From the NCBI RefSeq assembly GCF_001741865.1, contig NZ_CP017147.1, forward strand, positions 4,703,001 through 4,767,000: DNA of 64,000 nucleotides. Reading direction: 5' to 3'. This DNA comes from Bosea vaviloviae. GTDB taxonomy: Bacteria; Pseudomonadota; Alphaproteobacteria; Rhizobiales; Beijerinckiaceae. Below the pieces are notes generated by a model. That model worked only from the letters and a program-made list of their open reading frames with translations. It did not search any database and was not told the origin of the DNA. Shown one piece after another: positions 5,597 through 25,892 of the stretch (positions are counted from its first letter, which is position 1; each line of letters starts with the position of its first letter). The position numbers and the translations under genes were made by a program.

Positions 5597-6367
5597 ATGG
5601 AACGTCGGACCTTCCTGTCCATGCTGGCCGGCAGCGCCATGGCTGCGGGAATCCTGCCCTCCGGAATCTTGCCCGCCCGGGCGCAGTCCGTGCTCAAGGT
5701 CGGCTCGACCCCGACAGGCAGCCCCTTCACCTTCCTCGACACCAAGACCAACACCATCGAGGGCGTGATGGTCGACCTGATCAAGGCGATCGCGGCATCC
5801 TCCGACTTCAAGGTCGAGGTCGAGGGCATGCCGTTCGCGACGCTGATCGCCTCTCTGACCAGCAACAAGGTCGATATCGTCGCCGCCGCGATGTACATCA
5901 CCCCGCCCCGCAAGGAGGTGATCGACTTCTCGGATCCGATCTACACCTATGGCGAAGGCCTGATCGTACCGGCCACCGACACCAAGGACTACGTTACCTT
6001 CGAGGATATGAAGGGCATCACGATCGGCGTGCAGATCGGCACGGCCTATGTCGATGTGCTGCAGAAATCCGGCCTGTTCTCCGAGGTCAAGCTCTACAAG
6101 ACCCTGCCCGACATCCTCGCCGACGTGAACGCAGCGCGCGTCCAGGCCGCCGTCTTCGACCTGCCGATCATCGCCTATAACCTGTCGCAGGGGCAATTCC
6201 CGAAGATCCGCATCGTCAAGTCGTACAAGCCGGTGATCTCCGGCTCGGTCGGCATCGGCGTGCGCAAGAGCGACGGTGAATTGCTCAAGAAGATCAACAC
6301 CGGCCTCGCCAAGCTCAAGGCCGACGGCACCGTCGACAAGATTTTGGCGAAGTGGGGCCTGGCCTGA
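5597..6367 (+). CDS. Amino acid/amine ABC transporter substrate-binding protein (family 3)
   Basis: A 256-residue periplasmic binding protein. An RR-containing signal peptide of about 28 residues ends at ARA, looking Tat-like (ERRTFLS). The mature part has the family 3 fold: KVGSTPTGSPFTF at the start, then YTPPRKEVIDFSDPIY, EDMKGITIGVQIGT and a C-terminal DKILAKWGL. Such proteins deliver polar amino acids or amines to a two-subunit inner-membrane transporter, here encoded by the next two genes. Transcription is probably controlled through the two TTCATGcaCATGAA sites. The ligand cannot be read from sequence; the PuuR-like regulator and the oxidase downstream hint at a polyamine or related amine. 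Confidence 0.87.
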   Translation: MERRTFLSMLAGSAMAAGILPSGILPARAQSVLKVGSTPTGSPFTFLDTKTNTIEGVMVDLIKAIAASSDFKVEVEGMPFATLIASLTSNKVDIVAAAMYITPPRKEVIDFSDPIYTYGEGLIVPATDTKDYVTFEDMKGITIGVQIGTAYVDVLQKSGLFSEVKLYKTLPDILADVNAARVQAAVFDLPIIAYNLSQGQFPKIRIVKSYKPVISGSVGIGVRKSDGELLKKINTGLAKLKADGTVDKILAKWGLA

Positions 6368-9556: not shown

Positions 9557-10141
9557 CTAACGCAGCCCGTCCTCGCCCTTGATCTCGTGCTTCTGCAACC
9601 CGCCGATGCGCGGCAGCGGGCGGCCCGAATCGGTGATCGCGATCGCCACCAAAATCTCGCCGGCGCGCGGCGCGTCGGTGATCCGGACCTCGACCGCATC
9701 GAAATGCGAGCGCACGAAGGCTGCGTCCTTGTGGCCGAGCGGCACGTCGATCGGTGTGCCGAGCCCGCCGCGCTTCTTCGCCGAGGGGATCAGCGCCGGC
9801 CCCTTGCCGAGCGCCGCACGCACCGGCGTGCCCAGCTTGGGATGGAGGATGGCGGCTGCATGCTCGAGTTCGCCGCCCTCGCCGACGATCGCCGCCTTGC
9901 CGAAGCTCTCGGCCTGGTCGGGCGCGATGTTCAGCGCCGCAAGGCAGCGCTTGGTCAGGAGGTCGCCGAGCTCGACGCCAATCTCGGTCAGCTCCGAGAG
10001 GTCTTCCTGATAACGCCCGGCGAACGGGTTGGCGATCACGGCGCAGGCCACGGCGCGCCGCGTCGGCGGGCTGATCGTCTGGCCCATTTCGAGATGGATT
10101 TCATCGACTTGCGTCAAGATCTTGCGGATGTCTGCGGGCAT
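9557..10141 (-). CDS. PF06684 'amino acid synthesis' family protein, copy 1
   Basis: A 194-residue protein of the family formerly DUF1185. Family features are a conserved N-terminal half (VACAVIANPFAGRY), the KAAIVGEGGELEHAAAILHP segment near residue 90, the PSAKKRGGLGTPIDVPLGHKDA stretch and a final GRPLPRIGGL. No biochemical function is firmly established for the family. It is the last gene of a minus-strand group with a paralogue (10351-10938) and an enamidase. The paralogues are similar through most of their length but clearly diverged, so duplication was not recent. A role in handling the enamidase product is possible but unproven. Confidence 0.8.
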   Translation of the reverse strand: MPADIRKILTQVDEIHLEMGQTISPPTRRAVACAVIANPFAGRYQEDLSELTEIGVELGDLLTKRCLAALNIAPDQAESFGKAAIVGEGGELEHAAAILHPKLGTPVRAALGKGPALIPSAKKRGGLGTPIDVPLGHKDAAFVRSHFDAVEVRITDAPRAGEILVAIAITDSGRPLPRIGGLQKHEIKGEDGLR

Positions 10142-10164
10142 GGCGGAGGGACTCCAGCGTCAAG

Positions 10165-10330
10165 TCAGGCGCGGGGAACCCCTCTCCTGTAAGGAGAGGG
10201 GCAGGGGTGAGGTGTAGGCCGTTGGACGAGGAAGGCGCGGGCTAAAGATAGGCGTGCCAATCTGGTTTCCTGGCCTGCCCTCACCCTGCCCTCTCCCACA
10301 CGGGAGAGGGTTCCCCGCGCCTCTTTTGGC
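10165..10330. repeat. Inverted repeat pair, CGCGGGGAACCC family
   Basis: Two arms, CGCGGGGAACCCCTCTCCTG (10171 on) and the reverse-complement-like GGGAGAGGGTTCCCCGCGCC (10303-10322), flank a spacer between the two PF06684 genes. The same unit occurs at 19708-19757 and 19853-19903. It is a dispersed repeat in this genome. Confidence 0.65.
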
Positions 10331-10350
10331 AAGAAAGGGAGAGCTGTCCA

Positions 10351-10938
10351 TCACCGCTGCCCGTCGCCAACGCTGATCTGGTCGGCGCGCAGGCCGCCGA
10401 CGCGCTCATGGATGCGCGCGCCCGTCGTCATCACCAGGACGAAGACGAGTTCATCCGCTTGCGGCGAGCCCGGCACGCCGATCTCGACCGCGCCGAAATG
10501 GCTGCGGACATAAGATGCGTTGATATGGGTGACGGGAATGTCGATGCGCGCGCCCGGCCCCGCCACCTTCTTGGTCGAGGGCACAATCGCTTTCGCATTG
10601 CCGAGAATCTCGCGCATCGCGTAGCCGCCCGGCACATGCCAGAGCGCGCCATGCTCCAGTTCCCCGGCGGAGCCGACGATTGCGCCCTTGCCATAGCCCT
10701 CGACGGTCCCGGGATCGCCGCCGAGCGCGTTGAGGCAACGCGTCGCCATGTCGAGGCCGGCAGCCTTCAGCGCTTCCATCATCGGCAGGATGTCGGGCGC
10801 GTAGCGCCCGGCATAAGGGTTGGTCAGCACGGCGCAAACCGAGGCGATGCGCTCGGTGCGGCCGGGGCGCGGACCGAATTCGTGGAAGATCTCCTCCACG
10901 CTGGTCTGGACCCGACGGATATCGATGAGCTCAGTCAT
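10351..10938 (-). CDS. PF06684 'amino acid synthesis' family protein, copy 2
   Basis: A 195-residue paralogue of the neighbouring 9557-10141 product, with the same order of motifs: VCAVLTNPYAGRY, GKGAIVGSAGELEHGALWHVPGG, PSTKKVAGPGARIDIPVTH and a closing GARIHERVGGLRA. The ATG at 10938 is chosen over an upstream TTG because GAGGGG lies just before it. It starts eight bases after the enamidase stop and is therefore co-transcribed with it. Function is unknown; tandem retention of two diverged copies beside the enamidase suggests related reactions or a hetero-oligomer. Confidence 0.8.
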   Translation of the reverse strand: MTELIDIRRVQTSVEEIFHEFGPRPGRTERIASVCAVLTNPYAGRYAPDILPMMEALKAAGLDMATRCLNALGGDPGTVEGYGKGAIVGSAGELEHGALWHVPGGYAMREILGNAKAIVPSTKKVAGPGARIDIPVTHINASYVRSHFGAVEIGVPGSPQADELVFVLVMTTGARIHERVGGLRADQISVGDGQR

Positions 10939-10946
10939 GATGCCCC

Positions 10947-12143
10947 TCAATGCCCGACCAGAACGGGCGCGGTGTGCGATGGCGGCGTGTTGCGCGAGCG
11001 GCCGGTGCGGATGATGCCGTCGATCACCACCATGCCGATACCCGGAATGTCGCCGAGCGAGACGGCGTCGAGCAGATGCTTTCCGGCCGAATGCTGCGGC
11101 TTGTCGAGAAAGACGAGATCGGCCGGCATGCCGACCGCGATGAAGCCGGCATCGAGCTTGCGCACCCGCGCGGTATTGCCGGTCGCCATGCAGAAAGCGA
11201 CCTCGGGCGGCACGTCACCGAGGCTCGACAGGAAGGCGATCATCCTGAGGATGCCGAGCGGCTGCACGCCGGAACCCGCCGGCGCGTCCGTGCCGAGGAT
11301 GACCTTGTAGGTCAGGTTCAGTTCGGTCGCGGTCTTGATGGCTTCGAGCGCGGCGCGCTCATTGCCGTTATGGACGATCTCGATCGCGCCCCTCGCCTGC
11401 TCGCAGAGCCGGCAGATGCCGGAAAAGCGGATCGAGGTATGGCCGCCATTGATGTGGCTGATCACATCGGGCTGGGCCTCCAGCACGATGTCCTCGCTGA
11501 TCAGGCTCGACCCCGCGATCGACGGCCCGCCAGTATGGATGATCGTCTCCATCCCGTATTTTCGGGCCCAATCGACATGCTTCTTCGCCTCGGGCCCGGT
11601 GTTGACGGTGCCGAGCCCGATCTCGCCGATCATCTTGACCCCGGCGCGGGCCATCTCGGCATAATCCTCCTCGACCATGCTGGTCTCGGCGATCGGCGCG
11701 CCGGCATGGATCTTCGCCCCCGTCGGCCGGAAATTCGCGAAGGTGCGCTGTGCCGTGATGGCGAGCGCCTTGACGCCGATGGGATCCTTCGGCCGGCCGG
11801 GCAGATGCACTTCGCCGGCCGAGACGAAGGTGGTGACGCCGCCATTGACGCAGGAATCGATCCAGCCCATCTGCCCCTGCCGCGGCGTCCAGTCGCCGAA
11901 GACCGGGTGGCAATGGCTGTCGATCAGCCCCGGGGCGACCGGCGAGCCCTGCGCATCGATGATGCTGTCGGCCCGATCACAATCGAGATCGGCGGCCCGG
12001 CCGATGGCCGTGATGCGGCCGTCGACCGCGATGATCGTATCGGCGTCGAGGATCGGCTGGTTGAGATCGCCCGAGAGCACCAGGCCGAGATTGCGGATGA
12101 CGAGCTTGCCCTTGGCCGGGCCTGCCGCGACGTCGTGAGCCAT
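10947..12143 (-). CDS. ena: Enamidase-like amidohydrolase (nicotinate pathway)
   Basis: A 398-residue amidohydrolase-superfamily enzyme. It matches the Eubacterium barkeri enamidase in order and wording of motifs as I recall that sequence: GRPKDPIGVKALAIT, GEIGLGTV, HTGGPSIAGSS, PDVISHINGG, CMATGN, DIPGI and a C-terminal SRNTPP. Metal-ligand candidates are H77 and H79 in DSHCHP and the later HTGG and HING histidines. Enamidase opens 1,4,5,6-tetrahydro-6-oxonicotinate to ammonia and 2-formylglutarate. The start at 12143 has GGAGG seven bases upstream. It leads a minus-strand operon with two PF06684 genes and is divergent from a MarR regulator. Confidence 0.82.
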   Translation of the reverse strand: MAHDVAAGPAKGKLVIRNLGLVLSGDLNQPILDADTIIAVDGRITAIGRAADLDCDRADSIIDAQGSPVAPGLIDSHCHPVFGDWTPRQGQMGWIDSCVNGGVTTFVSAGEVHLPGRPKDPIGVKALAITAQRTFANFRPTGAKIHAGAPIAETSMVEEDYAEMARAGVKMIGEIGLGTVNTGPEAKKHVDWARKYGMETIIHTGGPSIAGSSLISEDIVLEAQPDVISHINGGHTSIRFSGICRLCEQARGAIEIVHNGNERAALEAIKTATELNLTYKVILGTDAPAGSGVQPLGILRMIAFLSSLGDVPPEVAFCMATGNTARVRKLDAGFIAVGMPADLVFLDKPQHSAGKHLLDAVSLGDIPGIGMVVIDGIIRTGRSRNTPPSHTAPVLVGH

Positions 12144-12196
12144 CTGGTCCTCCGCTCGAAACGTATAGCACAATCATGCCTGCGAGACAGGCGATG

Positions 12197-12219
12197 TTTG
12201 AATGTGTAATAACAATCAT
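12197..12219. promoter_or_regulatory. Putative MarR operator, site 1
   Basis: TTTGAATGTGTAATAACAAT lies between the divergent enamidase and MarR genes. Over the last 18 bp it matches site 2 (12855-12878) at 14 positions, including the heptamer TAACAAT. It overlaps the 5' end of an over-long MarR reading frame, which supports the later MarR start. Assignment as an operator is inference. Confidence 0.45.
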
Positions 12220-12294
12220 GGACAGCGTTTCGGCGGCTGGCAAGAGGCGATGCGGCAGGGCCGGAGGCGCGGCCCGCGCGGCGGCGATCAGGGG

Positions 12295-12801
12295 ATGAGG
12301 ATGAGCAGGCAGGACAGCGTGGCGGACACAGCCGCCAAGCCGACCGCAAGGCAGCGCAAGCCGTCCTCGGCCAGCACTGCCGCCCCAACGGGCTATATCC
12401 TCGACGAGCAGGTCGGCTTCCTGATGCGCCGCGCCCAGCAGCGCCATATCTCGATCTTCCAGCGCATCATGGGCGATGACGGCCCGACGCCGACGCAATT
12501 CGCCGCCATGTCGAAACTGAGCGCCGGCGAGGAGATTTCGCAGAATCTGCTCGGCCGCATGACGGCGATGGACCCCGCCACCATCAAGGGCGTGATCGCG
12601 CGGCTGGAAGAGCGCGGGCTGGTCGAGCGCCTGCCCGACCCCGACGATCAGCGCCGCGTCCGCGTCCGGCTCAGCGCCAAGGGGCACGAGGCGATTCCTG
12701 GCCTGCTCGAGAAGGCGAAGGCGATCACCGCCGCGACCCTGGCACCGCTTTCGCGCGAAGAGGCCGAGCGCCTGCTCGCGCTGCTGGCGCGCCTCGATTG
12801 A
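12295..12801 (+). CDS. MarR-family transcriptional regulator
   Basis: A 168-residue winged-helix regulator. A basic N-terminal tail precedes the MarR core (about residues 40-165), with PTPTQFAAMSKL, the recognition-helix area MTAMDPATIKGVIARLEERG and the wing DPDDQRRVRVRLSAKG. MarR proteins of aromatic catabolism (NicR, BadR, HcaR type) are usually relieved by a pathway intermediate or its CoA ester. The start is 12295 or 12301; AGGGG precedes both, while the ATG at 12202 would place the operator-like site inside the gene. Its position between enamidase and the FNR operon makes it the probable regulator of this cluster, analogous to NicR, which responds to 6-hydroxynicotinate. Confidence 0.87.
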   Translation: MRMSRQDSVADTAAKPTARQRKPSSASTAAPTGYILDEQVGFLMRRAQQRHISIFQRIMGDDGPTPTQFAAMSKLSAGEEISQNLLGRMTAMDPATIKGVIARLEERGLVERLPDPDDQRRVRVRLSAKGHEAIPGLLEKAKAITAATLAPLSREEAERLLALLARLD

Positions 12802-12854
12802 GCAGCGCCCTGCCTGATTGGAGCAGGACTTGCCTGCAAAATCCGCTTGCGCAA

Positions 12855-14010
<1,156 letters not shown>

Positions 14011-14011
<1 letters not shown>

Positions 14012-14325
14012 TGCATGTCCGCGTCACCGATCGCGAAGGCGAGCAGCGCGAACTCGAGGCGCTCGAAGGCTGGCGATTGATGGAAATCATCCGCGACTGG
14101 GGCCTGCCGATCAAAGCCGAATGCGGCGGAGCCTGCGCCTGCGCCACCTGCCATGTCTATGTCGCGGCGGACTGGGTCGATAAATTGCATCCGCCGCGCG
14201 AGGAGGAGCTGGAGCGCCTCGACGAGGCCTTCGACGTGCGCCCGAACTCACGCCTCGCCTGCCAGATCCTGTTCTCACCCGAGCTCGACGGGCTGACGGT
14301 CGTGCTGGCGCCGGAACTGGACTGA
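14011..14325 (+). CDS. [2Fe-2S] ferredoxin, adrenodoxin type
   Basis: A 104-residue soluble electron carrier. Cluster ligands are C38, C44, C47 and C84 in the C-x5-C-x2-C-x36-C pattern of bacterial adrenodoxin-type ferredoxins. The acidic C-terminal half (EEELERLDEAFDV) suits docking to a reductase. It is translationally coupled to the FNR gene and precedes the molybdenum hydroxylase genes. The E. barkeri 6-hydroxynicotinate reductase is ferredoxin-linked, so this protein is the likely immediate donor (inference from context). Confidence 0.93.
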
Positions 14326-14354
14326 GACAGCACGCTGACGAGGAGCAGACGGTC

Positions 14355-15230
14355 ATGACGCGCTATCTTCGCCCCCGGACACTCGATGAAGCTCTGGCGC
14401 TCAGAGCCGGCGACGGCCCGCTGACGATCCTGGCGGGCGGCACCGACGTCTATCCCGTCCGCACCCAGCGCGCCGCCTGGTTCGAGCCCCATAATCGCGA
14501 TCTGCTCGACCTCAGCCTCATCCCGGAGCTCGCCGGCATCGATCACGCCCCAGAGGGCATCCGTATCGGCGCGATGGCGACATGGAGCGCCATCGCCCAG
14601 GCCGATCTCCCGCCCGCCTTCGACGCCCTGAAACAGGCAAGCCGGCAGGTCGGCGGCGTCCAGATCCAGAACCGGGCTACGATCGGCGGCAATCTCTGCA
14701 ACGCCTCGCCCGCCGCTGACGGGGTGCCGCCGCTGCTGGCGCTTGATGCCGAAGTTGAGCTGGCGAGCCCTGGCGGACGCCGACGACTGCCGCTCGCCTC
14801 ATTCGTGCTTGGGAACCGCAAGACCGCGCTTGCGCCTGATGAATTGCTGGTTGCCATCCACGTGCCGGCACAGCCGGCGGAAGCGCGCTCGACTTTCAAA
14901 AAGCTCGGCGCGCGCGCCTATCTGGTGATCTCGATCGCCTCCGTCGCCATCAATCTCGCCCTGGATGCGCAAGGGCGCATCGCTTCGCTGCGGATCGCTG
15001 TGGGAGCCTGCGCGGCCGCGCCGCAGCGATTGAGCGCGCTCGAAGCCCGGCTGCTCGACCAAGTGTCCTCGCGTGCGCTGGCCGAGAGCCTCAGCGCCGC
15101 CGATCTCGCGCCTCTGTCGCCGATCGACGATGTCCGCGCCAGCGCCGCCTATCGCCGCGACGCCGCGCTCGTCCTGGTGCGGCGCGCGCTCGCCGGTTTG
15201 CTGTCTTCGCCGCTGGAGGTCGCCGCGTGA
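14355..15230 (+). CDS. Molybdenum hydroxylase FAD subunit (nicotinate dehydrogenase-like)
   Basis: A 291-residue FAD-binding subunit of the xanthine dehydrogenase family (CoxM/NdhF type). The FAD pyrophosphate-binding segments are visible as TILAGGTDVYP (near residue 25) and QIQNRATIGGNLCNASPAAD (near 103), with the C-terminal CO dehydrogenase flavoprotein domain (about 175-280). It takes electrons from the [2Fe-2S] clusters of the next protein. GGAG stands before the ATG, and its end overlaps the next gene as GTGA, so the two subunits are made together. Confidence 0.88.
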   Translation: MTRYLRPRTLDEALALRAGDGPLTILAGGTDVYPVRTQRAAWFEPHNRDLLDLSLIPELAGIDHAPEGIRIGAMATWSAIAQADLPPAFDALKQASRQVGGVQIQNRATIGGNLCNASPAADGVPPLLALDAEVELASPGGRRRLPLASFVLGNRKTALAPDELLVAIHVPAQPAEARSTFKKLGARAYLVISIASVAINLALDAQGRIASLRIAVGACAAAPQRLSALEARLLDQVSSRALAESLSAADLAPLSPIDDVRASAAYRRDAALVLVRRALAGLLSSPLEVAA

Positions 15231-18058
15231 ACGTCCATGATCGCTCCACCCTCAGCTCCTCGGCTCCGGCCAGCGACGGCATCGCCTTCCGGCTCAACGG
15301 CGCGAACGTCTATCTGGGCGACGCGCCCGACACGCGGTTGAGCGAAGCGCTGCGCGGGAGCCTCAGCGCCACCGGCACCAAGATCGGCTGCGACGCCGGC
15401 GATTGCGGCGCCTGCACGGTGCTGATCGACGGCGCACAGGCCTGCGCCTGCCTGACGCCGATCGGACAGGTGGAAGGCCGCGAGATCATCACGGTCGAAG
15501 GCCTGGCGCAGGACGCGCTCGGCTCAGCCCTGCAGAAGGCGTTCCACGCGCATGGCGCGGCCCAATGCGGCATCTGCACGCCCGGCATGCTGATGGCGGG
15601 CTACGATCTGCTCAAGCGCAGCCCACAGCCCAATGAGGCCGAGACGCAGGATGCACTCGGCGGCGTGCTCTGCCGCTGCACCGGCTATCTCAAGATCGTC
15701 GAGGCCGTGCGCGACGCGCATCTTTTCATCGAGCCCGCTCCGATCGCGCCTGCCGCGAGCACTGCGTCGGTCGGCGCGCGCATGACCCGCCTTGACGGAG
15801 AGCCCAAGGTCGCCGGCACGGAGGTCTATGGCGCCGATGCCGCGCCGGTCGACGCGCTCTGGCTGCGCGCCGTGCGCAGCCCCCATCCCCGCGCCCGTTT
15901 CGCGCTGGGCGATCTCGACGCCTTCGTCGCAAGCCACCCGGGCCTCGTGCGCATCTTCACCGCGAAGGACGTGCCGGGCGAGAACTCCTTCGGCATCTAC
16001 CCGCATCTCAAGGACCAGCCGGTCTTCTCGACTGGCGAAACGCGCTATCGCGGCGAATGCGTGCTCGCCATCGTCGGCGAGAAGGATGCGGTCGAGGCGA
16101 TCAGGCTGGACGAGTTCCCGATTGCCTGGGAAGCGCTGCCGCCGATGGTCGGCGTCAAGGCGGCGCTGGGCGAGAGCGCCTTCACCCTTCATGATTTCGC
16201 GCCCGACAATGTGCTGACGCGCGGCCGCGTCGAGCGCGGCGATGTCGAAGCCGGCTTCGCGCAGGCCGCCCATCTCGCCACCGGCAGCTTCGAGACCGGC
16301 TTCGTCGAGCACGCCTATATCGAGCCCGAGGCTGGTTACGCCCGGCGCGTCGACGACACGATCGAGGTTTTTGCCTGCACCCAGGCGCCTTATATGGACC
16401 GCGACGAGGTCGCCCGCGTGCTCGGCCTGAAGCTCGACGATGTCCGCATCATCCCTTCGGCTTGCGGCGGCGGCTTCGGCGGCAAGCTCGACGTCTCGCT
16501 GCAGCCGATGCTGGCGGTCGCGGCCTGGGTCCTCGACCGGCCGGTGCGTTGCGTCTTCGGCCGCATCGAATCGATGATCTCCTCGACCAAGCGCCACCCC
16601 TCCTCGATCGAAGCCAGGGCTGCCTGCGATGCGGACGGCCGCCTCGTCGCCTTCGCCATGGAAGGCGATTTCGACACCGGCGCCTATTCCTCCTGGGGCC
16701 CGACGGTGGCGGGCCGCGTGCCGGTGCATGCGACCGGTCCCTACAAGGTGCCCAATGTCTGCAACCTGTCGCGCGCGGTCTACACCAACGGCCCGCCGGC
16801 AGGCGCCTTTCGCGGCTTCGGCGTGCCGCAGGCCGCGATCGCGCAGGAGAGCCTGTTCGACGATCTCGCCACTGCTGCCGGCCTCGACCGGCTGGAATTC
16901 CGCCTGATCAACGCAATCCGCGCCGGCGATACGACACCGACCGGCCAGGTCCTGCTGGCCAGCGCCGGCCTGGCCGAATGCCTGGAGAAGCTCAAACCCC
17001 ACTGGCAGGCCCTGCTCGCGGATGCAGCGGCCTTCAATGCCAGCGAAGGCCGCACGCGCCGCGGCGTCGGCATCGGCTGCATGTGGTACGGCATCGGCAA
17101 CACCGGCATGTCGAACCCTTCGACCATGCGGATCACGCTCGACACCATGGGCCAGCTCACCTTCTGGAACGGCGCGGTCGATATCGGCCAGGGCTCGACC
17201 ACGGTGCTGACCCAGATCGCGGCCGACGCGCTCGGCCTGCCGGTCGAGGCCTTCACGCTGGTCATCGGCGACACGTATCTGACCTTCGACGCCGGCAAGA
17301 CCTCGGCCTCGCGCCAGACCTTCGTCTCCGGCCGCGCCTCGGAGGCTGCCGCCGCCGCGTTGCGCAGCGAGATCCTGCGCCTGACCAATGCCGGCCCGAG
17401 CGCGACCCTGACGCTCGCGGGCACGCAGCTGCTGGTCGAGGAGAACGGCGTCATCGCGCGCATCGACCTCGCCGCCCTCCCCGCCAAGGCCGATGGCATC
17501 GTTCTGGAGGGCATCGGGAGCTTCGACCCGCCGACCGTGCCCTTGGACGAGAAAGGCCAGGGCATCCCCTACGCCACCTATGGTTTTGCGGCGCAGATCG
17601 CCTCGCTCGACGTCGATCTCGATCTCGGCACGGTCAAGCTCAACCGCATCGTCGCGGCCCATGATGTCGGCCGCGCGATCAACCCGATGCTGGTCGAGGG
17701 CCAGATCCATGGCGGCATCGCCCAGGGCATCGGGCTGGCGCTGCTGGAGGAATACCTGCCCGGCCGCACCGAGAATTTGCACGATTACCTGATCCCGACC
17801 GCCGGCGACGTACCGCCGATCGACATCATCCTGGTCGAGGATGCCGAGCCGCTCGGCCCCTCCGGAGCCAAGGGCATCGGCGAGCCGGCTTTGGTGCCGA
17901 CCGCGCCGGCGATCCTCGGCGCGATCCGCCACGCCACCGGCGTGACGCCCCGGCAGGTCCCGGTGCTGCCGCATCGGTTGTGGGAATTGCTGCGGGCCAA
18001 AGATATTGGCGACACGGATATGGGCGACAAGGATATTGGCGAGGAGACTCAGCCGTGA
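15227..18058 (+). CDS. Molybdenum hydroxylase: fused [2Fe-2S] and molybdopterin subunits
   Basis: A 943-residue protein joining two normally separate subunits. Residues 18-170 hold two [2Fe-2S] clusters: C55, C60, C63, C75 and C114, C117, C149, C151. Residues about 175-920 are the molybdopterin-binding part, with GGGFGGKLD, GAFRGFG, a QGSTTV loop and the catalytic glutamate E886 in GIGEP. Members hydroxylate N-heteroaromatics with water as oxygen donor; the neighbours indicate nicotinate to 6-hydroxynicotinate. The GTG start overlaps the FAD subunit stop. The last 20 residues are a near-repeat DIGDTDMGDKDIG tail, outside the catalytic domain. The substrate assignment rests on context. Confidence 0.85.
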   Translation: MNVHDRSTLSSSAPASDGIAFRLNGANVYLGDAPDTRLSEALRGSLSATGTKIGCDAGDCGACTVLIDGAQACACLTPIGQVEGREIITVEGLAQDALGSALQKAFHAHGAAQCGICTPGMLMAGYDLLKRSPQPNEAETQDALGGVLCRCTGYLKIVEAVRDAHLFIEPAPIAPAASTASVGARMTRLDGEPKVAGTEVYGADAAPVDALWLRAVRSPHPRARFALGDLDAFVASHPGLVRIFTAKDVPGENSFGIYPHLKDQPVFSTGETRYRGECVLAIVGEKDAVEAIRLDEFPIAWEALPPMVGVKAALGESAFTLHDFAPDNVLTRGRVERGDVEAGFAQAAHLATGSFETGFVEHAYIEPEAGYARRVDDTIEVFACTQAPYMDRDEVARVLGLKLDDVRIIPSACGGGFGGKLDVSLQPMLAVAAWVLDRPVRCVFGRIESMISSTKRHPSSIEARAACDADGRLVAFAMEGDFDTGAYSSWGPTVAGRVPVHATGPYKVPNVCNLSRAVYTNGPPAGAFRGFGVPQAAIAQESLFDDLATAAGLDRLEFRLINAIRAGDTTPTGQVLLASAGLAECLEKLKPHWQALLADAAAFNASEGRTRRGVGIGCMWYGIGNTGMSNPSTMRITLDTMGQLTFWNGAVDIGQGSTTVLTQIAADALGLPVEAFTLVIGDTYLTFDAGKTSASRQTFVSGRASEAAAAALRSEILRLTNAGPSATLTLAGTQLLVEENGVIARIDLAALPAKADGIVLEGIGSFDPPTVPLDEKGQGIPYATYGFAAQIASLDVDLDLGTVKLNRIVAAHDVGRAINPMLVEGQIHGGIAQGIGLALLEEYLPGRTENLHDYLIPTAGDVPPIDIILVEDAEPLGPSGAKGIGEPALVPTAPAILGAIRHATGVTPRQVPVLPHRLWELLRAKDIGDTDMGDKDIGEETQP

Positions 18059-19587
18059 ACGAACTCAACCCCGTTCCCGCAGCGGATGCGGCGCTCGCCG
18101 AGCGCTCGCGCAAATTCGGCGCGTCAGAGGGCAATGAAGGCATCGTCCGCTGCGACGCCTGCCCGGTCCTGTGTCGCATTCGCCCCGGCCGCTCCGGCGC
18201 CTGCTCGCGCTACGCCAATGACAACGGGCTGCTGGTGCGCACCGATCCGGTCGTGCTGCTGGCCGAGGCCGTCGAGGTCGGCGGCCCTGTCGTGCCCTTT
18301 GCCGAAAACGCCGAGGATTGGGACGGCAAGATTTTGCCGGCGAACCGCGCCTTCGTCACCGGCATCGGCTCGGGCACGACCTATCCCGACTACAAGCCCG
18401 CCCCCTTCATCGTCTCCTCGCAGCATGAGGGGGTCGACACCGTCACGGTCGTGACCGAGGGCATTTTTTCGTATTGCGGCGTCAAGGTGAAGATCGACAC
18501 CGACCGCCATCTCGGCCCGGAGACCGCTGCCGTACGCGCCAATGGCGAGCAGATCGGCCATGTCACCACGGCCGAGTACGGCTCGCAGATGCTTTCGCTC
18601 GGCGGCGTGCGCCATCTCACCGGCGGTTCCAAGAAGGAAGGCAACGCCACCTGCGAGGCGATGCTGAAGCTCAGCAATGGCGAGGCAGTGGAACTGACCA
18701 TCGATGGCGGCCATGGCGTGATCGTGCAGGCCGGCCACGCTCCGATCGTCGACGGCAAACCGGAGACGCGCATGCGTGTCGGCTGCGGCTCGGCCACCAT
18801 CGGCATCTTCGCCAAGCAGTGGCAGGGCCATGTCGACGAGGTCATCGTCGTCGACGATCACATCACCGGCGTGCTGACCGAGCATCAGGCCGGCCGCGTG
18901 CTCGACATGAAACCCGCCGGGATTCGCGTGCGCGGGCGGAAATCGACGCCTGGTCGCTATTTCCAGGTCGCCCAGCCCGGCCTCGGCTGGGGCGGCACCG
19001 ACATCACCGAACCGCTCTCGATCATCCAGAAGATCGATGCAGGCCTCGCCTGGCCCGGCATGCGCCTCTTGATGACATCGACCACCGGCGAGGATTCGCT
19101 TTATTGCGTGCTCGACGAGAACCTGCTGCCCGTCGAAGCCGAGATGCCGGCGGCCGTGCGGCAGGTCGTCGAGCGCATCGGCGAGAATTGCGAGCCCTCG
19201 CTCTGCACCGTCACCTTCATGGCCGGCGCCGGCGGCAGCTTGCGGGCGGGTGTGACTGAGAATCCCGTGCTGCTGACGCGCTCGGTTCAATCAGGCACGA
19301 CGCGGGTCACGATGGGCGGCGCGCCGGTCTATGTCTGGCCCGGCGGCGGCATCACCGTGATGGTCGATGTGCTGCGCATGCCCAAAAACGCCTTTGGCTA
19401 TGTGCCGACGCCGGCAATCGTCGCGCCGATCGAATTCACCCTGTCGCGCGAACTCTATCTCGCCTCGGGCGGGCATGCCGACGAGATCGTCCCGATGGAA
19501 GAGATTTTGCGCGCCCATGGCGGGCAGGCGCGGATCGAGAACGCGGTGGCGGAGAATCCCTGGCCGCTCCGGCGGGATGTGGGGTAG
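18055..19587 (+). CDS. hnr: 6-hydroxynicotinate reductase-like Fe-S flavoprotein
   Basis: A 510-residue protein recognised as the 6-hydroxynicotinate reductase type. In E. barkeri that enzyme reduces 6-hydroxynicotinate to 1,4,5,6-tetrahydro-6-oxonicotinate with ferredoxin electrons and carries Fe-S clusters plus covalently bound flavin. Here the N-terminus has a clustered motif C33-x2-C36-x3-C40-x9-C50, a likely [4Fe-4S] site. Two SGTT tetrapeptides (residues 106-109 and 413-416) resemble ApbE-type flavinylation sites. The GTG start overlaps the previous stop and GAGGAG precedes it. Neighbouring FNR, ferredoxin and enamidase genes support the role. Other cysteines are scattered, so the full cluster content is unclear. 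Confidence 0.75.
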   Translation: MNELNPVPAADAALAERSRKFGASEGNEGIVRCDACPVLCRIRPGRSGACSRYANDNGLLVRTDPVVLLAEAVEVGGPVVPFAENAEDWDGKILPANRAFVTGIGSGTTYPDYKPAPFIVSSQHEGVDTVTVVTEGIFSYCGVKVKIDTDRHLGPETAAVRANGEQIGHVTTAEYGSQMLSLGGVRHLTGGSKKEGNATCEAMLKLSNGEAVELTIDGGHGVIVQAGHAPIVDGKPETRMRVGCGSATIGIFAKQWQGHVDEVIVVDDHITGVLTEHQAGRVLDMKPAGIRVRGRKSTPGRYFQVAQPGLGWGGTDITEPLSIIQKIDAGLAWPGMRLLMTSTTGEDSLYCVLDENLLPVEAEMPAAVRQVVERIGENCEPSLCTVTFMAGAGGSLRAGVTENPVLLTRSVQSGTTRVTMGGAPVYVWPGGGITVMVDVLRMPKNAFGYVPTPAIVAPIEFTLSRELYLASGGHADEIVPMEEILRAHGGQARIENAVAENPWPLRRDVG

Positions 19588-20090
19588 CGGCTCGATCGCC
19601 CACGCACCGTCATATCAAGCCCACGACTATCCGGTTCGCTGCAAGCGCCCGATCGAAGAGCACCGTTCATTGAAGGCTTTCCAGCGGGCGGTGACGAATG
19701 AGACAGGCGCGGGGAACCCCTCTCCCGTGTGGGAGAGGGGCAGGGGTGAGGGCAGGCCAGATAACCAGATCGCGCAAGCGGCTCCGCATCGTCTCCTGTG
19801 CTTTCAGGATGAAGCCAGTGCTGCGGCACGGTCGCGCCTCAATAATCGGCGGCAGGCCCTCATCCCTGCCCTTCTCCCATCCGGGAGAAGGGTTCCCCGC
19901 GCCCTTCATCCAGCACTTCGCGTCACCTTCGCCCGCGAGGGGAGAGCCGTGCATGATCCGCTCAGGGGTCAGAACTCCAACCGGACAGCAGTGGGTCAAG
20001 CCCGACCATGACGCGCTCCAGCATGGATTCCGGATCGGCGCCGCTTCGCGGCTTGTCCGGAATGACATGGTGTTTCCATATGAAGTCACC
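19588..20090. repeat. Intergenic repeats between hnr and the UPF0280 gene
   Basis: This 503-bp gap has no credible gene. Copies of the CGCGGGGAACCC / GGGTTCCCCGCGCC family lie at 19708-19757 and 19853-19903, in inverted arrangement, and a GGATTCCGGATCGG...TTGTCCGGAATGAC fragment lies at 20022-20065. The repeats separate two genes that are otherwise likely in one transcription unit and may modulate read-through. Confidence 0.65.
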
Positions 20091-20960
20091 ATGCGCCCCT
20101 CATTGAAAACCCATCGCATCGCCCGCCTGCCCGGCAACCGGCTGCATCTGCAGGAGGGGCCGAGCGATCTCGTCATCGCGGCCTTCGGTCCCAAGCCGCG
20201 AATCGAGCGGGCCTATGTCGCGGCCGAGGCGCGTTTCGATGGGCTTTTGACCGAACTCGCCGGCGAATTGCGCCTGCTGCGCCAACCGCTCGACCATCAG
20301 CCGCCCTCCCTGAAGGGCGCGACGGCGCAACGCATGGCGCGCGCCTGCTGGGCTTTCCGGTCGCAATACATCACGCCGATGGCGGCGGTCGCCGGCGCAG
20401 TGGCGGATACGGTCCTCAGCGCGATGCTCGCAGCCGAACCCCGGCTCGAGCGCGCCTATGTCAATAATGGCGGCGATATCGCGCTGCACGTCACGCCCGG
20501 TTACCCGCTCGACATCGGCGTCGTGCCCTCGCTTGCCCGCGCCCGGCCGGAGGGTTTCCTGCGGCTCGATCCGGCAAGCCACGCGCGAGGTATCGCAACC
20601 AGCGGCTGGCGCGGGCGCTCCTTCTCGCTCGGCATCGCCGACGCCGTCACCGTGCTGGCGCGCTCGGCGGCCGAGGCCGACGCAGCCGCGACCGTCATCG
20701 CCAATGCCGTCGATGTGAAGGACGCGGCAATCCTCCGCCGGCCGGCGCGTGAACTCGATCCCGACAACGATCTCAGGGGGTTGGCGGTGACGGTTGAAGT
20801 GGGGCCGTTATCACCAACGGCAGTGGCGACGGCGCTGGAGAACGGCGTCAGGGTTGCGCAACTGCTGCTGTCCGAGGGGCTGATCGAGGGAGCCCTGCTG
20901 GCACTGGCCGATGAGTGGCGCAGCGTGGGTGGGGCGACCAGCCTGACCACCTCCGGATAA
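20091..20960 (+). CDS. UPF0280 family protein (ApbE superfamily)
   Basis: A 289-residue protein of the UPF0280 family (COG2122), related to the flavin transferase ApbE. Visible features are the QEGPSDLVIAAFG start, a conserved PMAAVAGAVADTVL segment near residue 100, YVNNGGDIALH near 122 and GIATSGWRGRSFSLGIADAVTVLA near 165. The last is equivalent to the ApbE region that closes the active site. Function is unproven. Its place directly after a reductase whose relative has covalent flavin suggests a flavin transferase or cofactor-insertion role. The ATG at 20091 is chosen because upstream codons only translate repeat DNA. Confidence 0.82.
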   Translation: MRPSLKTHRIARLPGNRLHLQEGPSDLVIAAFGPKPRIERAYVAAEARFDGLLTELAGELRLLRQPLDHQPPSLKGATAQRMARACWAFRSQYITPMAAVAGAVADTVLSAMLAAEPRLERAYVNNGGDIALHVTPGYPLDIGVVPSLARARPEGFLRLDPASHARGIATSGWRGRSFSLGIADAVTVLARSAAEADAAATVIANAVDVKDAAILRRPARELDPDNDLRGLAVTVEVGPLSPTAVATALENGVRVAQLLLSEGLIEGALLALADEWRSVGGATSLTTSG

Positions 20961-20964
20961 ATCG

Positions 20965-21090
20965 CGACGTCATCCTGGCCGTAGCGAAGCGGAGCGCCGG
21001 GATCCATCGTAGGGCCAGACTCGTCAAAGGATTGGCCCTCCGATGGATCCCGGGACGACCTTCGGTCGCCCAGGATGACGCGAGGGTGTT
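20965..21090. repeat. Palindromic intergenic repeat, GTCATCCTGG family
   Basis: GTCATCCTGGCCGTAGCG ... GGGATCCATCGTAGGGC is followed by the inverted CGATGGATCCCGGGACGACC ... CCAGGATGACGCG, giving a long stem between convergent genes. A close relative lies at 31592-31702. It probably serves as a bidirectional terminator. Confidence 0.65.
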
Positions 21091-21104
21091 AGGCACGTTG
21101 GCGC

Positions 21105-21815
21105 TCACACCGACAGATACTGCGTCCTGACCGCCTCGTTGGCCTTCAATTCATCCATCGTGCCGGTGAAGCGGATCATGCCCTTCTCGATGATCGCGGC
21201 GCGGTCAGCGACATTGCCGGCGAAGTGCAGGTTCTGCTCCGAGATCAGCACCGAAAGCCCTTCAGCCTTCAGGGCCAGGATGGTCTTGGCCATCTCCTCG
21301 ATGATGACCGGCGCCAGCCCCTCGGACGGTTCGTCCAGCAGCACGAGCTTGGGGTTGCCCATCAGGGTCCGCGCGATCGTCAGCATCTGTTGCTCGCCAC
21401 CCGACATCGCCCCGCCCGGCCGGTCGCGCATGCGGCCGAGATTGGGGAAGAGCGCAAACAGCCGCTCCGGCGTCCAGTGCGGCGCGTCAGAGCGCGCCGG
21501 ACGCTGCGCGACCGAAAGGTTCTCCATCACGCTGAGTTCGGAGAAGACGCGCCGGTCCTCCGGCACATAGCCGATGCCGAGCCGCGCGATCTCGAAGGGC
21601 TCGCGCCCCTGAACCGCCCGCCCCTCGAAGGTCACGGTGCCGCCGGCTGGGGGCACCAGGCCCATGATCGCCTTCATCGTGGTCGATTTTCCGGCGCCGT
21701 TGCGGCCCATCAGCGCCAGCACCTCGCCGCGGTTCATCGTGAAGCCGAGGCCCTGCAGGATATAAGCACGGCCGTAATAGGCGTCGAGACCGACGATTTC
21801 GAGTAGCGCACTCAC
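21105..21815 (-). CDS. HAAT-type ABC transporter ATPase, LivF-like
   Basis: A 236-residue ATPase of the hydrophobic amino acid transporter family. It has Walker A GRNGAGKST (near residue 36), signature MSGGEQQM, Walker B LVLLDEPSEGLAP and SEQNLHFA at the switch region, all typical of LivF. The GTG at 21815 is preferred: it overlaps nothing upstream and has GGAGGG about nine bases before it, whereas the frame from 21899 runs into the LivG gene. It is the distal gene of a four-gene operon whose promoter shares a 12-mer with the nicotinate operon, so it may power uptake of nicotinate or a relative. Confidence 0.92.
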   Translation of the reverse strand: MSALLEIVGLDAYYGRAYILQGLGFTMNRGEVLALMGRNGAGKSTTMKAIMGLVPPAGGTVTFEGRAVQGREPFEIARLGIGYVPEDRRVFSELSVMENLSVAQRPARSDAPHWTPERLFALFPNLGRMRDRPGGAMSGGEQQMLTIARTLMGNPKLVLLDEPSEGLAPVIIEEMAKTILALKAEGLSVLISEQNLHFAGNVADRAAIIEKGMIRFTGTMDELKANEAVRTQYLSV

Positions 21816-21816
21816 C

Positions 21817-22620
21817 TTAATGCCCTCCCGAGGTCGCGCCGGAGCCGAGATAGACGGCGCGGACATTGGGGTCGCGCCTGACCTCCTCGGCCGTGCCATG
21901 GGCGATCAGCCGGCCACGATCGAGCACGATGACGCTGTCGGAATGGGTGAAGACGACATCCATGTCGTGCTCGGTGAAAAGCACGGCAATGCCCTTGGCG
22001 GCAGCGATATCGGCGGTCAGCGCCATCAATGCGATGCGCTCGCGCGGCGCCATGCCGGCGGTCGGCTCGTCCATCAGCAGGAGTTTCGGCTGGTTGGCCA
22101 GCGCGACCGCAAGCTCGACGCGCTTGAGGTCGCCATAGGCGAGCACGCCGCAGGCTCGGCTCCCTTGTTCCAGCATGCCGACCTGGGCGAGCAGCGCGTC
22201 GGCGGCCTCGGCATGGCGGTCGCGGGCGCGCCCGAACGGGCTCCAGATCCCGCCGGCATGGGAGATCAGCGCCATCTGGACGTTCTCGCGCACGGTCATC
22301 GAGGTGAAGGTCGCGGTGATCTGGAAGGTACGACCGACGCCCATGCGCCAGACCACGCGCGGCTTCATGCCGGTGATCGACCTGCCTGCCAGCAAAACCT
22401 CGCCGCCATCGGGCCTGAGCTGGCCGTTGAGCATGTTGAAGCAGGTCGTCTTGCCCGCACCGTTGGGGCCGATCAGCGCCAGCATCGTGCCGGCCTGGAC
22501 GGAGAAGGAGACGCCGTCGACCGCGCGCACGCCGCCGAAGGATTTCTGCAGATCGCGCACGACCAGGACCGGGTCGGGCGCCACGGCGGGGATCGCCTGG
22601 AGCTGCGGGACCGCGTTCAT
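21817..22620 (-). CDS. HAAT-type ABC transporter ATPase, LivG-like
   Basis: A 267-residue ATPase. It has Walker A GPNGAGKTT (near residue 51), the LivG hallmark GRTFQITATFTSMTVREN, LAYGDLKRVELA at the signature position, Walker B LLLMDEPTAGM and FTEHDMDVVF. The signature reads AYGDLKR rather than SGGQ, as is common in LivG. The ATG at 22620 overlaps the permease stop (ATGA); the longer frame to 23361 is a shadow of the permease gene. It pairs with the LivF-like subunit. Confidence 0.92.
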   Translation of the reverse strand: MNAVPQLQAIPAVAPDPVLVVRDLQKSFGGVRAVDGVSFSVQAGTMLALIGPNGAGKTTCFNMLNGQLRPDGGEVLLAGRSITGMKPRVVWRMGVGRTFQITATFTSMTVRENVQMALISHAGGIWSPFGRARDRHAEAADALLAQVGMLEQGSRACGVLAYGDLKRVELAVALANQPKLLLMDEPTAGMAPRERIALMALTADIAAAKGIAVLFTEHDMDVVFTHSDSVIVLDRGRLIAHGTAEEVRRDPNVRAVYLGSGATSGGH

Positions 22621-24506
22621 CGTCCGCCCTCCACTGCCAGCCGGGCGGCAGGCTCGGGCTGCCTCGTCCAGCGCTCGCGCAGCAGCAGCGACGCACCGAC
22701 CAGCCCACGCGGGAACAGGATGACGAGCAGCACGATCGAGAGCCCGAGCCCAAAGCGCCAATACATCGTCGCCTTCATCAACTGCTCGCTGAGGCCCGCA
22801 TAGGCGAAGGCGCCGATGACCGGGCCCGCCACAGTCTGCACGCCACCGAGCAGCACCATCAGCAGCGCATCGACCGAGCGCGGGATCGCCATATAGGTCG
22901 GGAAGACCGAGCCCTTGAAGAAGGCGAAGAGCGCGCCCGCGATGCCCGCTGCAAAGGCCGCGACCGCGAAGGCGACCCATTGGATGCGCATCACGTCGAG
23001 GCCGATGGCCTCGGCCCGCAGCGGGTTGTCGCGCCCGGCCCGCAAGGCATAGCCGAGCGGTGAGAAGATCGTCAGGCGCAAGGCGAGGATCGAGAGCACG
23101 CAGACGCCGAGCGTAAGGTAGTAGAAATTCAGCTTCGAGACGGCCCAGGCCGAGGGCCAGACGCCGAGAATGCCGTTGTCGCCACCGGTCAGCTCGACCC
23201 ATTGGAAGGCGGTCGCCCAGGCGATCTGCGCGAAGGCGAGCGTCAGCATGGCGAGATAGACGCCCGAGAGGCGCACGCAGAACCAGCCGAAGACAACGCC
23301 GGCGATGCCTGCCAGGAAGGGCGCGAAGATCAGGGCGGGCTCCATCGAAGCGCCCAACCATTTCACCGCCAGCGCCGCGCCATAGGCGCCGAGCCCGAAA
23401 TAGGCGGCGTGGCCGAAGGACGCCATGCCGCCGGGGCCCATCATGAAATGCAGCGAGGCCGCGAAGAGCGCGAAGATCACCAGCTCGGTCAGCGTCAGCA
23501 GGATATGGTCTGGCGCGACCAGTGGCGCGAGCACGAGCAGCAGGAGCGCGATCAGGCCGGCAAGCCTGGTCAGCTTGTCGGCCGGCAGCAGCAGCGGCTC
23601 GGCCGGGCCATGGCCGCGCGCCCCGCCGATCGGCGCCTTGCCCATCAAACCATAGGGCTTGACCACCAGGACCACCGCCATCACCAGGAAGACCAGCACC
23701 AGCGTGATCTTGGGGAAGATCAGGATGCCGAAGGCGTGCAGGATGCCGATCAGCACGGCGGCGAGATAGGCCCCCGTCACGCTGCCCAGGCCGCCGACGA
23801 CCACGACCACGAAGACCTCCGAGATCATCGACAGGTCCATATGCAGGTTGACCGCCTCGCGCGGGAGCTGCAGCGCGCCGCCAAGGCCTGCCAGCATCGA
23901 GCCGAAGGCAAAGACCGAGGTGAAGAGCAGGCGCTGGTTGACGCCGAGCGCTCCGACCATCTCGCGGTCCTGCGTCGCAGCCCGTACCAGCGTGCCCCAG
24001 CGCGTCTTCTGGAACAGCAGCCAGAGGATGAGCAGCACCAGCGGCCCGACCGCGATCAGGAAGAGCTCATAAGTCGGGAAGCGGTTGTCGAACAGGATGA
24101 CGAAGCTCTTGAGGCCGGGCGCGCGCGGCCCGAGCTTGTCCTCCGGCCCCCAGGTCGCAAGCGCCAGGTCCTGCAGCATCAGCACGACGCCGAAGGTGGC
24201 GAGCAATTGGAAGAGTTCCGGAGCCTGGTAGATTCGGCGCAGCACCAAGACCTCGATCACGACGCCGAGGAGCCCGACGAGCAGCGCCGCGAGCAGCACG
24301 CCGCCCCAGAAGCCGAATGGCTCCGCCGCGCCGAAGTAGCTCACCAGCGTCCAGGCGAGATAGGCGCCCAGCATATAGAGCGAGCCATGCGCGAAATTCA
24401 CGATGCGCGTGACGCCGAAGATGATCGACAGCCCCGACGCAACGAGAAAGAGCGAGGAGGCCGAGGCCAGCCCGTTCAGCGTCTGGGTGAGGATGAGGTC
24501 GATCAT
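22617..24506 (-). CDS. Fused LivH-LivM permease of a HAAT-type ABC transporter
   Basis: A 629-residue membrane protein joining the two permeases normally encoded separately. The N-terminal part (to about residue 300) is LivH-like, opening with TQTLNGLASASSLFLVASG and IVNFAHGSLYMLGAYLAW. The C-terminal part (about 300-610) is LivM-like, with FMMGPGGMASFGHAAYFGLGAYGAAL. A loop near residues 295-325 joins the halves. The start at 24506 is taken at MIDLIL; upstream codons lie in repeat DNA. Both gates in one chain fixes a heterodimer-like arrangement. No sign of a sequencing frameshift is seen across the junction. Confidence 0.9.
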   Translation of the reverse strand: MIDLILTQTLNGLASASSLFLVASGLSIIFGVTRIVNFAHGSLYMLGAYLAWTLVSYFGAAEPFGFWGGVLLAALLVGLLGVVIEVLVLRRIYQAPELFQLLATFGVVLMLQDLALATWGPEDKLGPRAPGLKSFVILFDNRFPTYELFLIAVGPLVLLILWLLFQKTRWGTLVRAATQDREMVGALGVNQRLLFTSVFAFGSMLAGLGGALQLPREAVNLHMDLSMISEVFVVVVVGGLGSVTGAYLAAVLIGILHAFGILIFPKITLVLVFLVMAVVLVVKPYGLMGKAPIGGARGHGPAEPLLLPADKLTRLAGLIALLLLVLAPLVAPDHILLTLTELVIFALFAASLHFMMGPGGMASFGHAAYFGLGAYGAALAVKWLGASMEPALIFAPFLAGIAGVVFGWFCVRLSGVYLAMLTLAFAQIAWATAFQWVELTGGDNGILGVWPSAWAVSKLNFYYLTLGVCVLSILALRLTIFSPLGYALRAGRDNPLRAEAIGLDVMRIQWVAFAVAAFAAGIAGALFAFFKGSVFPTYMAIPRSVDALLMVLLGGVQTVAGPVIGAFAYAGLSEQLMKATMYWRFGLGLSIVLLVILFPRGLVGASLLLRERWTRQPEPAARLAVEGGR

Positions 24507-24534
24507 GAGGGAACCGCCTTGGGGCCAAAGCTCT

Positions 24535-24655
24535 GCCGTCATTCCGGGCGCGGCGAAGCTGCGACCCGGAATCCATCATAGAGCACCGTCGAGCCCGTCG
24601 ATGGATTCCGGATCTGCGCGGCTTACGCCGCTTGTCCGGAATGACGGAGGTTCAA
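24535..24655. repeat. Palindromic intergenic repeat, CATTCCGG family
   Basis: GTCATTCCGGGCGCGGCG ... CCCGGAATCCATC is followed by GATGGATTCCGGATCTGC ... TTGTCCGGAATGAC, the same unit as at 9420-9540. It lies between the substrate-binding protein and the permease, a usual place for a stabilising or attenuating hairpin that lets the binding protein be made in excess. Confidence 0.65.
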
Positions 24656-24674
24656 GTGCGAGCGGGAAATGTCA

Positions 24675-25892
24675 CTACCCCGCCGGGCGCAGCAGCTTCA
24701 CCTCGGCATCGCTCGGCAGGTATTTCGCGCCGTCGGCATAGCGCCAATCGACCATCACACCCTTGCCGTCCTTGAGCGCGGTCTTGCCGACAAACGCGCC
24801 CAGCGTCGACTGATGGTCGATAGCGCGATATTCGGCCTGACCGAAGGCGGAGGCGAATTTCAGGCCTTTCATAGCATCGACCAGCTTCTCGGTGTCGGTC
24901 GAGCCCGCCTTGGTGAGCGCCGCCGCGATCGAGTTCATCGTGTCGAAGCCGACGACCGAGCCGAGGCGCGGGTAGTCGTTGAACTTGGCCTTGTAGGCGT
25001 CGCGGAACTTGACGTGCTCCGGCGTCTGGATGTCGGCATGGGGATAGCCGGTGACGATCCAGCCAACAGGCGCTTCCGCACCGAGCGGATCGAGATATTC
25101 AGGCTCGCCGGTCAGCATCGAGACGACCGCCCTGCCCTCGAACAATCCGCGCGTATTGCCCTGGCGGACGAAGTTCGAGAGATCGGCGCCGAAGGTGACG
25201 TTGAAGATCGCGTCGGGCTTGGAGGCCTCCAGCGCCTGCACGGTCGCACCCGCATCGATGCGGCCGAGCGCCGGGAACTGCTCGGCGACGAACTCGACAT
25301 CGGGCTTGGCCTTCTTCAGCAGCTCCTTGAACCACTTCACGCCGGATTGGCCGTACTCGTAGTTCGGCGCGACCAGCGCCCATTTCTTTGCGGGAAGCTT
25401 GGCGGCTTCCTCGACCAGCATCGCCGCCTGCATATAGGTCGAGGGGCGCAGGCGGAAGGTGTAGCGGTTGCCCTTGGCCCAGACGACCGCATCCGAGAGC
25501 GGCTCGGAAGCGACATAGAGCCGCTTGTTCTGGGCGGCGAAGTCGGCGATCGCGAGCCCGACATTGGAGAGGAAGCCGCCCGAGAGCAGATCGACCTTCT
25601 CGGCATTGATCAGGTCGCCGGCATGGCGCACCGCGTCTTCCGGCTTGCCGCCATCGTCGCGGAAGATCGTCTCGATCTTGCGCCCGAGCGCGCCGCCTGC
25701 CGCATTGATCTGCTCCAGCGCCAGCTCCCAGCCCTGGCGATAGGGCTTCAGGAAGGCGGGTTGCGCCGTGTAGCTGTTGATCTCGCCCACCTTGATGGGC
25801 CCTGCCCCTTGTGCCCGCACCAGGGCCGGCGCAGCGATCAAGGCAGCGCCGGCGGAGGCGCCGGCTAGAAGTGACCGACGGTCGATCGTCAT
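24675..25892 (-). CDS. HAAT-type ABC transporter substrate-binding protein
   Basis: A 405-residue periplasmic binding protein of the Leu/Ile/Val-binding (COG0683) type. A Tat-like signal (DRRSLLAG, cleavage after VRA near residue 27) is followed by PIKVGEINSYT, GGALGRKIETIFRDDGGKPEDA and PNYEYGQSGVKWF. This family binds branched-chain amino acids but also aromatic acids. It is the first gene of the transporter operon. An exact 12-mer shared with the nicotinate operon promoter lies 90 bp upstream of its start, so nicotinate, a hydroxynicotinate or another pyridine carboxylate is a reasonable ligand (inference). Confidence 0.87.
   Translation of the reverse strand: MTIDRRSLLAGASAGAALIAAPALVRAQGAGPIKVGEINSYTAQPAFLKPYRQGWELALEQINAAGGALGRKIETIFRDDGGKPEDAVRHAGDLINAEKVDLLSGGFLSNVGLAIADFAAQNKRLYVASEPLSDAVVWAKGNRYTFRLRPSTYMQAAMLVEEAAKLPAKKWALVAPNYEYGQSGVKWFKELLKKAKPDVEFVAEQFPALGRIDAGATVQALEASKPDAIFNVTFGADLSNFVRQGNTRGLFEGRAVVSMLTGEPEYLDPLGAEAPVGWIVTGYPHADIQTPEHVKFRDAYKAKFNDYPRLGSVVGFDTMNSIAAALTKAGSTDTEKLVDAMKGLKFASAFGQAEYRAIDHQSTLGAFVGKTALKDGKGVMVDWRYADGAKYLPSDAEVKLLRPAG

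Follow-up and report, generated by a model that had tools for sequence, protein, structure and literature searches.

The window, a stretch of 64,000 nucleotides from the 6.7 Mb genome of Bosea vaviloviae, was analysed by means of its open reading frames and of Pfam and NCBIfam searches. From these data a gene unit could be delimited which extends from about position 9557 to 25892 and is wider than the region 10947–20960 described in the first-pass annotation. All genes named there, i.e., those for a molybdenum hydroxylase, a 6-hydroxynicotinate reductase (HNR)-like protein, an enamidase-like protein, a ferredoxin-NADP reductase (FNR), a [2Fe-2S] ferredoxin, and a MarR regulator, were recovered in that region. 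Left unmentioned were the gene of a UPF0280 protein, which lies inside the same region, two PF06684 genes, and an ABC transporter with its binding protein.

The two PF06684 genes and the enamidase gene are situated on the minus strand, and the genes for the MarR regulator, FNR, ferredoxin, the two chains of the molybdenum hydroxylase, HNR, and UPF0280 on the plus strand. After UPF0280 follow, again on the minus strand, a branched-chain-type ABC transporter and its binding protein (Table 1). With the TTG start, the gene of PF06684 protein B shares 4 bases with the enamidase gene, whereas with the ATG at 10938 there is no overlap; the stop codon of the FNR gene overlaps the ATG of the ferredoxin gene by 1 base. 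The nearest named HNR locus is that of Bosea psychrotolerans, with an HNR identity of 98%.

Table 1. Features of the putative nicotinate unit (positions refer to the window)
Feature	Position	Strand	Basis
PF06684 (AA_synth/DUF1185) protein A	9557..10141	-	Pfam E 1.1e-71
PF06684 protein B	10351..10950	-	Pfam E 4.6e-65; PDB 3BYQ E 2.7e-61
Enamidase (ring-opening amidohydrolase)	10947..12143	-	PDB 2VUN E 1.6e-110
MarR regulator	12202..12801	+	Pfam; BpsR ligand positions are Y65, F73, R76, H82
Thioredoxin-reductase-type ferredoxin-NADP reductase (FNR)	12968..14011	+	close homology to solved FNR of this type, PDB 5YGQ E 2.1e-171; start picked by eye
[2Fe-2S] ferredoxin	14011..14325	+	Pfam Fer2
Molybdenum hydroxylase FAD subunit	14355..15230	+	Pfam FAD_binding_5, CO_deh_flav_C
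Molybdenum hydroxylase fused [2Fe-2S] + Mo chain, probable nicotinate hydroxylase	15227..18058	+	Pfam; 3HRD chains A, B, D
6-Hydroxynicotinate reductase (HNR)	18055..19587	+	homologue names; GTG start picked by eye
UPF0280 (COG2122), ApbE-fold protein	20091..20960	+	NF003322 351.6 bits, cut-off 290; model and fold
Branched-chain-type ABC transporter, ATPases and fused permease, putative nicotinate importer	21105..24542	-	ORFs; permease Pfam BPD_transp_2; ATPases read from sequence
Periplasmic binding protein of the ABC transporter	24675..25892	-	Pfam Peripla_BP_6

The enamidase was matched to 2VUN with 373 bits over residues 23–402 of 408, and the next amidohydrolase reached only an E value of 2.8e-6. 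The fused chain of the molybdenum hydroxylase matched all three non-FAD chains of the nicotinate dehydrogenase of Eubacterium barkeri (3HRD chains A, B, and D with 259, 211, and 118 bits, respectively), the Fe-S and Mo domains being fused in one chain in Bosea and located on separate chains in the E. barkeri enzyme. The top single-chain match was an aldehyde oxidoreductase (354.6 bits); consequently, the substrate of this chain is not fixed by the scores alone. No Pfam or NCBIfam family was found in HNR at an E value of 0.001; its identity is taken from the name "6-hydroxynicotinate reductase" carried by many among the 120 homologues listed. Eight cysteines are invariant in 47 HNR sequences. 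In 46 of the 47, an N-terminal Cys motif (residues 30–59) weakly resembles AmmeMemoRadiSam radical SAM proteins, with a best E value of 0.0011 that is far under the family cut-off. The 503 bases between HNR and UPF0280 (19588–20090) look by eye like a G+C-rich intergenic repeat.

The ring-reducing enzyme HNR nearly always travels with UPF0280. Among 385 alphaproteobacterial genomes, HNR (E <=1e-20) and UPF0280 (NF003322, E <=1e-10) were detected in the identical 68 genomes, and no genome contained one of them alone. Sixty-five of the 68 UPF0280 matches are above the family cut-off, and the three below it (G064, G087, and G292) each have a match split over two contigs. In 200 Pseudomonadota genomes both proteins were again found in an identical set, comprising 15 genomes that all belong to the class of the window and five of which were already in the 385-genome set. 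Because the genomes share ancestry, these co-occurrence counts overstate independence. In the one-contig genome G028, HNR consists of two overlapping matches in different frames, split mid-protein (C1:2969781-2971261).

A search of 72,556 plasmids gave HNR in 26 and UPF0280 in 27. Twenty-five plasmid records were listed for each protein; 23 of the HNR records recur among those for UPF0280, and the remaining two have UPF0280 adjoining HNR. One UPF0280 record without an HNR match stems from Hydrogenophaga sp. BPS33 (NZ_CP044550.1, 150000-199000; L153), where three annotated repeat units about 10.8 kb apart hold UPF0280, a Rieske protein, a PDR/VanB oxidoreductase, and MarR; IS1071 transposases lie next to these units.

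The gene order is conserved as well. In all 65 loci in which both were found, UPF0280 lies downstream of HNR in the same orientation; three further loci are located on contigs of 6.5–9.0 kb. Between the two alignments (HNR end, UPF0280 start) there are 15–531 bases with a median of 63, and the 531 bases of the window are the largest value of the 65. UPF0280 was present near HNR in 78 of 80 named loci, the top-ranked ones out of 334 relatives, many of which are truncated at contig ends; in the loci L068 and L079 it was not found on the 2.6 and 6.5 kb available after HNR. Three loci titled as Gammaproteobacteria or Thiotrichales MAGs (L050, L067, and L071) have UPF0280 not adjacent, starting 3.1–5.6 kb after the HNR start. 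In the class-wide set all 46 loci of about 20 kb contained UPF0280. A link between UPF0280 and HNR was not found in print in the literature searched, which leaves most subscription journals outside. Seen in all 68 HNR genomes of the class-wide survey, the linkage offers a well-defined and testable partner for a family of uncertain function. We regard it as the interesting part of the locus, which otherwise encodes an ordinary pathway with a local variant of electron supply.

What could UPF0280 contribute to HNR? The HNR of E. barkeri reportedly carries a covalent flavin, and we know of no attachment enzyme for it. By model and fold comparison, UPF0280 has the fold of the flavin transferase ApbE. 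On the basis of the shared genomes, this fold, and the covalent flavin reported for the E. barkeri enzyme we propose that UPF0280 matures HNR. Tentatively, the UPF0280/COG2122 protein might be a dedicated cytoplasmic maturation enzyme which covalently flavinylates HNR through a modified ApbE chemistry that needs neither the canonical histidine nor the target motif. The D-x-x-x-T metal ligands are kept in UPF0280 (D197 in 57 of 57 and T201 in 56 of 57 sequences) and align with the ADAxAT of ApbE; in E. coli Ftp the metal ligands are given as D280 and T284 in the available part of PMC4767422. The pair differs from the ApbE/Ftp flavin transferases in two respects. First, the stretch of ApbE that holds the catalytic histidine corresponds to a gap in UPF0280 in the profile alignment; second, the ApbE target motif D-x-x-[ST]-G-A-[ST] was found in none of the 47 HNRs. 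A canonical ApbE (PF02424) was not detected in the Bosea genome itself.

Alternatively, UPF0280 could be a sulfur-trafficking or Fe-S maturation factor for HNR that transfers no flavin, as proposed for the archaeal protein MA1715. According to the available part of PMC12068725, MA1715 serves L-aspartate semialdehyde sulfurtransferase in sulfur trafficking, that of PMC5764234 states that the ApbE homology seemingly stops short of the flavin-binding region, and the invariant cysteines of HNR fit Fe-S clusters. However, the HNR-linked UPF0280 proteins have no conserved cysteine, the top column holding Cys in 29 of 57 sequences, and they keep the ApbE-type D/T metal ligands. We consider a role in sulfur or Fe-S delivery unlikely.

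As far as described in the accessible parts of PMC5764234 and PMC12068725, the partner of the COG2122 proteins of methanogens and Desulfovibrio (MA1715, DVU1097/2O34) is DUF39/COG1900 and not HNR. DUF39 (PF01837) was found in none of 249 Pseudomonadota genomes. Likewise, no PF01837 match was obtained with the 47 HNRs in a Pfam search at E <=10, the filters of which drop most weak matches. A kinship of HNR to DUF39/HcyBio, if real, would explain UPF0280 as a partner of both. If UPF0280 is indeed a flavin-attaching maturation enzyme, the DUF39 proteins of methanogens and sulfate reducers would be further clients of the same family, and a family whose currently stated role is sulfur trafficking would have one function.

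The cluster as a whole is very probably a nicotinate catabolic unit of the reductive type known from Azorhizobium and E. barkeri. Gene content, homology, conserved linkage, and the regulator pocket were observed; every substrate, the path of the electrons, the step of the PF06684 proteins, and the role of UPF0280 are what we infer. The ABC system would import nicotinate, and the molybdenum hydroxylase would convert it to 6-hydroxynicotinate, which would release the MarR repressor. HNR would then form 1,4,5,6-tetrahydro-6-oxonicotinate, here probably with electrons that pass from NADPH via the local FNR to ferredoxin. Enamidase would open the ring to yield 2-formylglutarate and ammonia; the PF06684 proteins may act on the ring-opened product or just after, and the carbon would continue elsewhere via glutarate. 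UPF0280 would be needed for the maturation of HNR, most likely for flavin loading.

The nicotinate fermentation cluster of E. barkeri is said to contain nicotinate dehydrogenase, HNR, and enamidase. The Bosea locus has an enamidase, an HNR recognised by the names of its homologues, and a molybdenum hydroxylase that is the putative counterpart of the dehydrogenase. In contrast to E. barkeri, no fermentative lower-pathway enzyme was found among the 13 window proteins scanned for families. The first-pass annotation had proposed the reductive route, which is backed by homology, the regulator pocket, and the conserved neighbourhood. This pathway was already known: the available part of PMC3511419 (2012) describes a nicotinate cluster conserved in A. 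caulinodans, B. japonicum, R. palustris HaA2, and strain SG-6C, reports 42% identity between the HNRs of SG-6C and E. barkeri, and refers to earlier work for a route via glutarate in A. caulinodans. The earlier statement that the lower pathway must differ is consistent with this published glutarate route. Compared by gene content with the cluster as given in the same part of PMC3511419, the Bosea locus has an extra FNR-ferredoxin pair.

The glutarate hydroxylase CsiD (PF08943) had no match in the Bosea genome itself. On a plasmid of Sulfitobacter pontiacus (L155, positions 1-5791) genes for an SDR, an acyl-CoA dehydrogenase, an enoyl-CoA hydratase, a 3-hydroxyacyl-CoA dehydrogenase, and an AMP-binding protein adjoin an enamidase-type cluster; they are a candidate glutaryl-CoA lower pathway.

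The extra pair had been put forward as the power supply of HNR. This is plausible in view of the FPR-type reductases that recur beside HNR, but it is not general, since the pair is present in only 6 of the 80 named loci. Over 1026 bases the FNR gene shares 97.7% identity with another FNR gene of the same genome (C1:5333393-5334439), the match lying inside the coding region. A general FNR copied into the operon beside the ferredoxin gene would fit a supply role. The recurrence of FPR-type reductases, which are of another family, also fits: they were found in the HNR clusters of Chthonobacter (L036) and Azospirillum (L073) and in L156, L203, and L218, and by annotation in those of Neorhizobium and Sulfitobacter. 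Most HNR loci show no such reductase gene close by. FNR and ferredoxin were each detected in 6 of the 80 top-ranked loci out of 334 relatives, a set with many truncations at contig ends; of the 46 class-wide loci with about 20 kb of sequence, three had an FNR or FPR-type match, in a search that would miss reductases unlike the FNR and FPR queries.

The scarcity of these matches would also be expected if the pair were a chance insertion which does not feed HNR, a housekeeping ferredoxin being the supplier. The near-identity of the local FNR to the second genomic gene points in the same direction, as does the Bosea clade of the HNR tree, where the pair was not found in L012, L013, L014, and L016 (three named Bosea and one "Rhizobiales bacterium"). 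Nevertheless, a chance insertion appears doubtful: FNR and ferredoxin also occur together, in a different arrangement, in a Kiloniellaceae locus (L078), and other HNR clusters carry reductases of the FPR family. The L156 cluster additionally holds an enamidase and a NicB-like gene, 58% to its Neorhizobium counterpart; for a fused molybdenum hydroxylase there was no match above threshold.

The enzyme that opens the ring is not constant. Among the 80 named loci (those ranking highest of 334 relatives, with many truncated at contig ends) the large chain of the molybdenum hydroxylase was present in 73 and enamidase in 34. Forty-five of these loci had both flanks: 26 contained enamidase, 15 HyuA or HyuB, none both, and four neither; of the proteins tested with Pfam, three were confirmed as HyuA and two as HyuB. 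In the class-wide set, 46 of the 68 loci offered about 20 kb; 15 of these contained enamidase and 16 HyuAB, none had both, and 15 had neither, although some loci with neither in the stretch carry a ring opener further off or cut. A tree was built of 58 HNRs, from the window and 57 loci; one locus with a short HNR and 22 lacking both ring openers were left out. On this tree the enamidase/HyuAB label requires five changes, and at least four of them are forced by well-supported branches. The Bosea-type enamidase clade of seven groups with 14 HyuAB rows (support 99/97). Hence the ring opener has been exchanged around a stable HNR-UPF0280 core. The swap provides a natural comparison of two openings of the same kind of reduced ring.

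The second-best PDB match of the MarR regulator is BpsR (6PCP/6PCO). According to the available part of PMC6837509, BpsR binds 6-hydroxynicotinate via Tyr15, His23, Arg26, and His32 and controls the aerobic nicC/nicE pathway in Bordetella. At these positions the window regulator has Tyr, Phe, Arg, and His; it thus shares three of the four ligand residues, His23 being Phe, with a protein whose own pathway is a different one. Among 22 regulators from loci of the enamidase type, 13 retain all four residues. A histidine occupies position 32 in 20 of 22 loci of this type, compared with 1 of 7 HyuAB-type loci (Fisher p 4e-4, indicative only as the loci are related); seven loci of unknown type were left out of this count, and one of the two enamidase-type exceptions is a misaligned translation. 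Since HyuAB-type clusters, some with HNRs close to that of the window on the tree, mostly lack His32, substrates may vary, but action of the cluster on a related N-heterocycle instead of nicotinate is very improbable, as the Bosea locus belongs to the enamidase type, Tyr15, Arg26, and His32 are retained in its regulator, and a HyuAB-type cluster, that of Neorhizobium, carries genes annotated nicA-nicB within 12 kb.

PF06684 was found anywhere in the genome in 59 of 68 genomes with HNR versus 6 of 80 without HNR, and near HNR in 54–55 of the 80 named loci (again the top-ranked of 334 relatives, with frequent truncation at contig ends). Our guess is that its step lies at or after ring opening. 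One genome (G082) has a close enamidase and PF06684 but no match to HNR or UPF0280. Finally, as the branched-chain-type transporter here belongs to a nicotinate locus, the existing name of the PF06684 family (AA_synth) may mislead.
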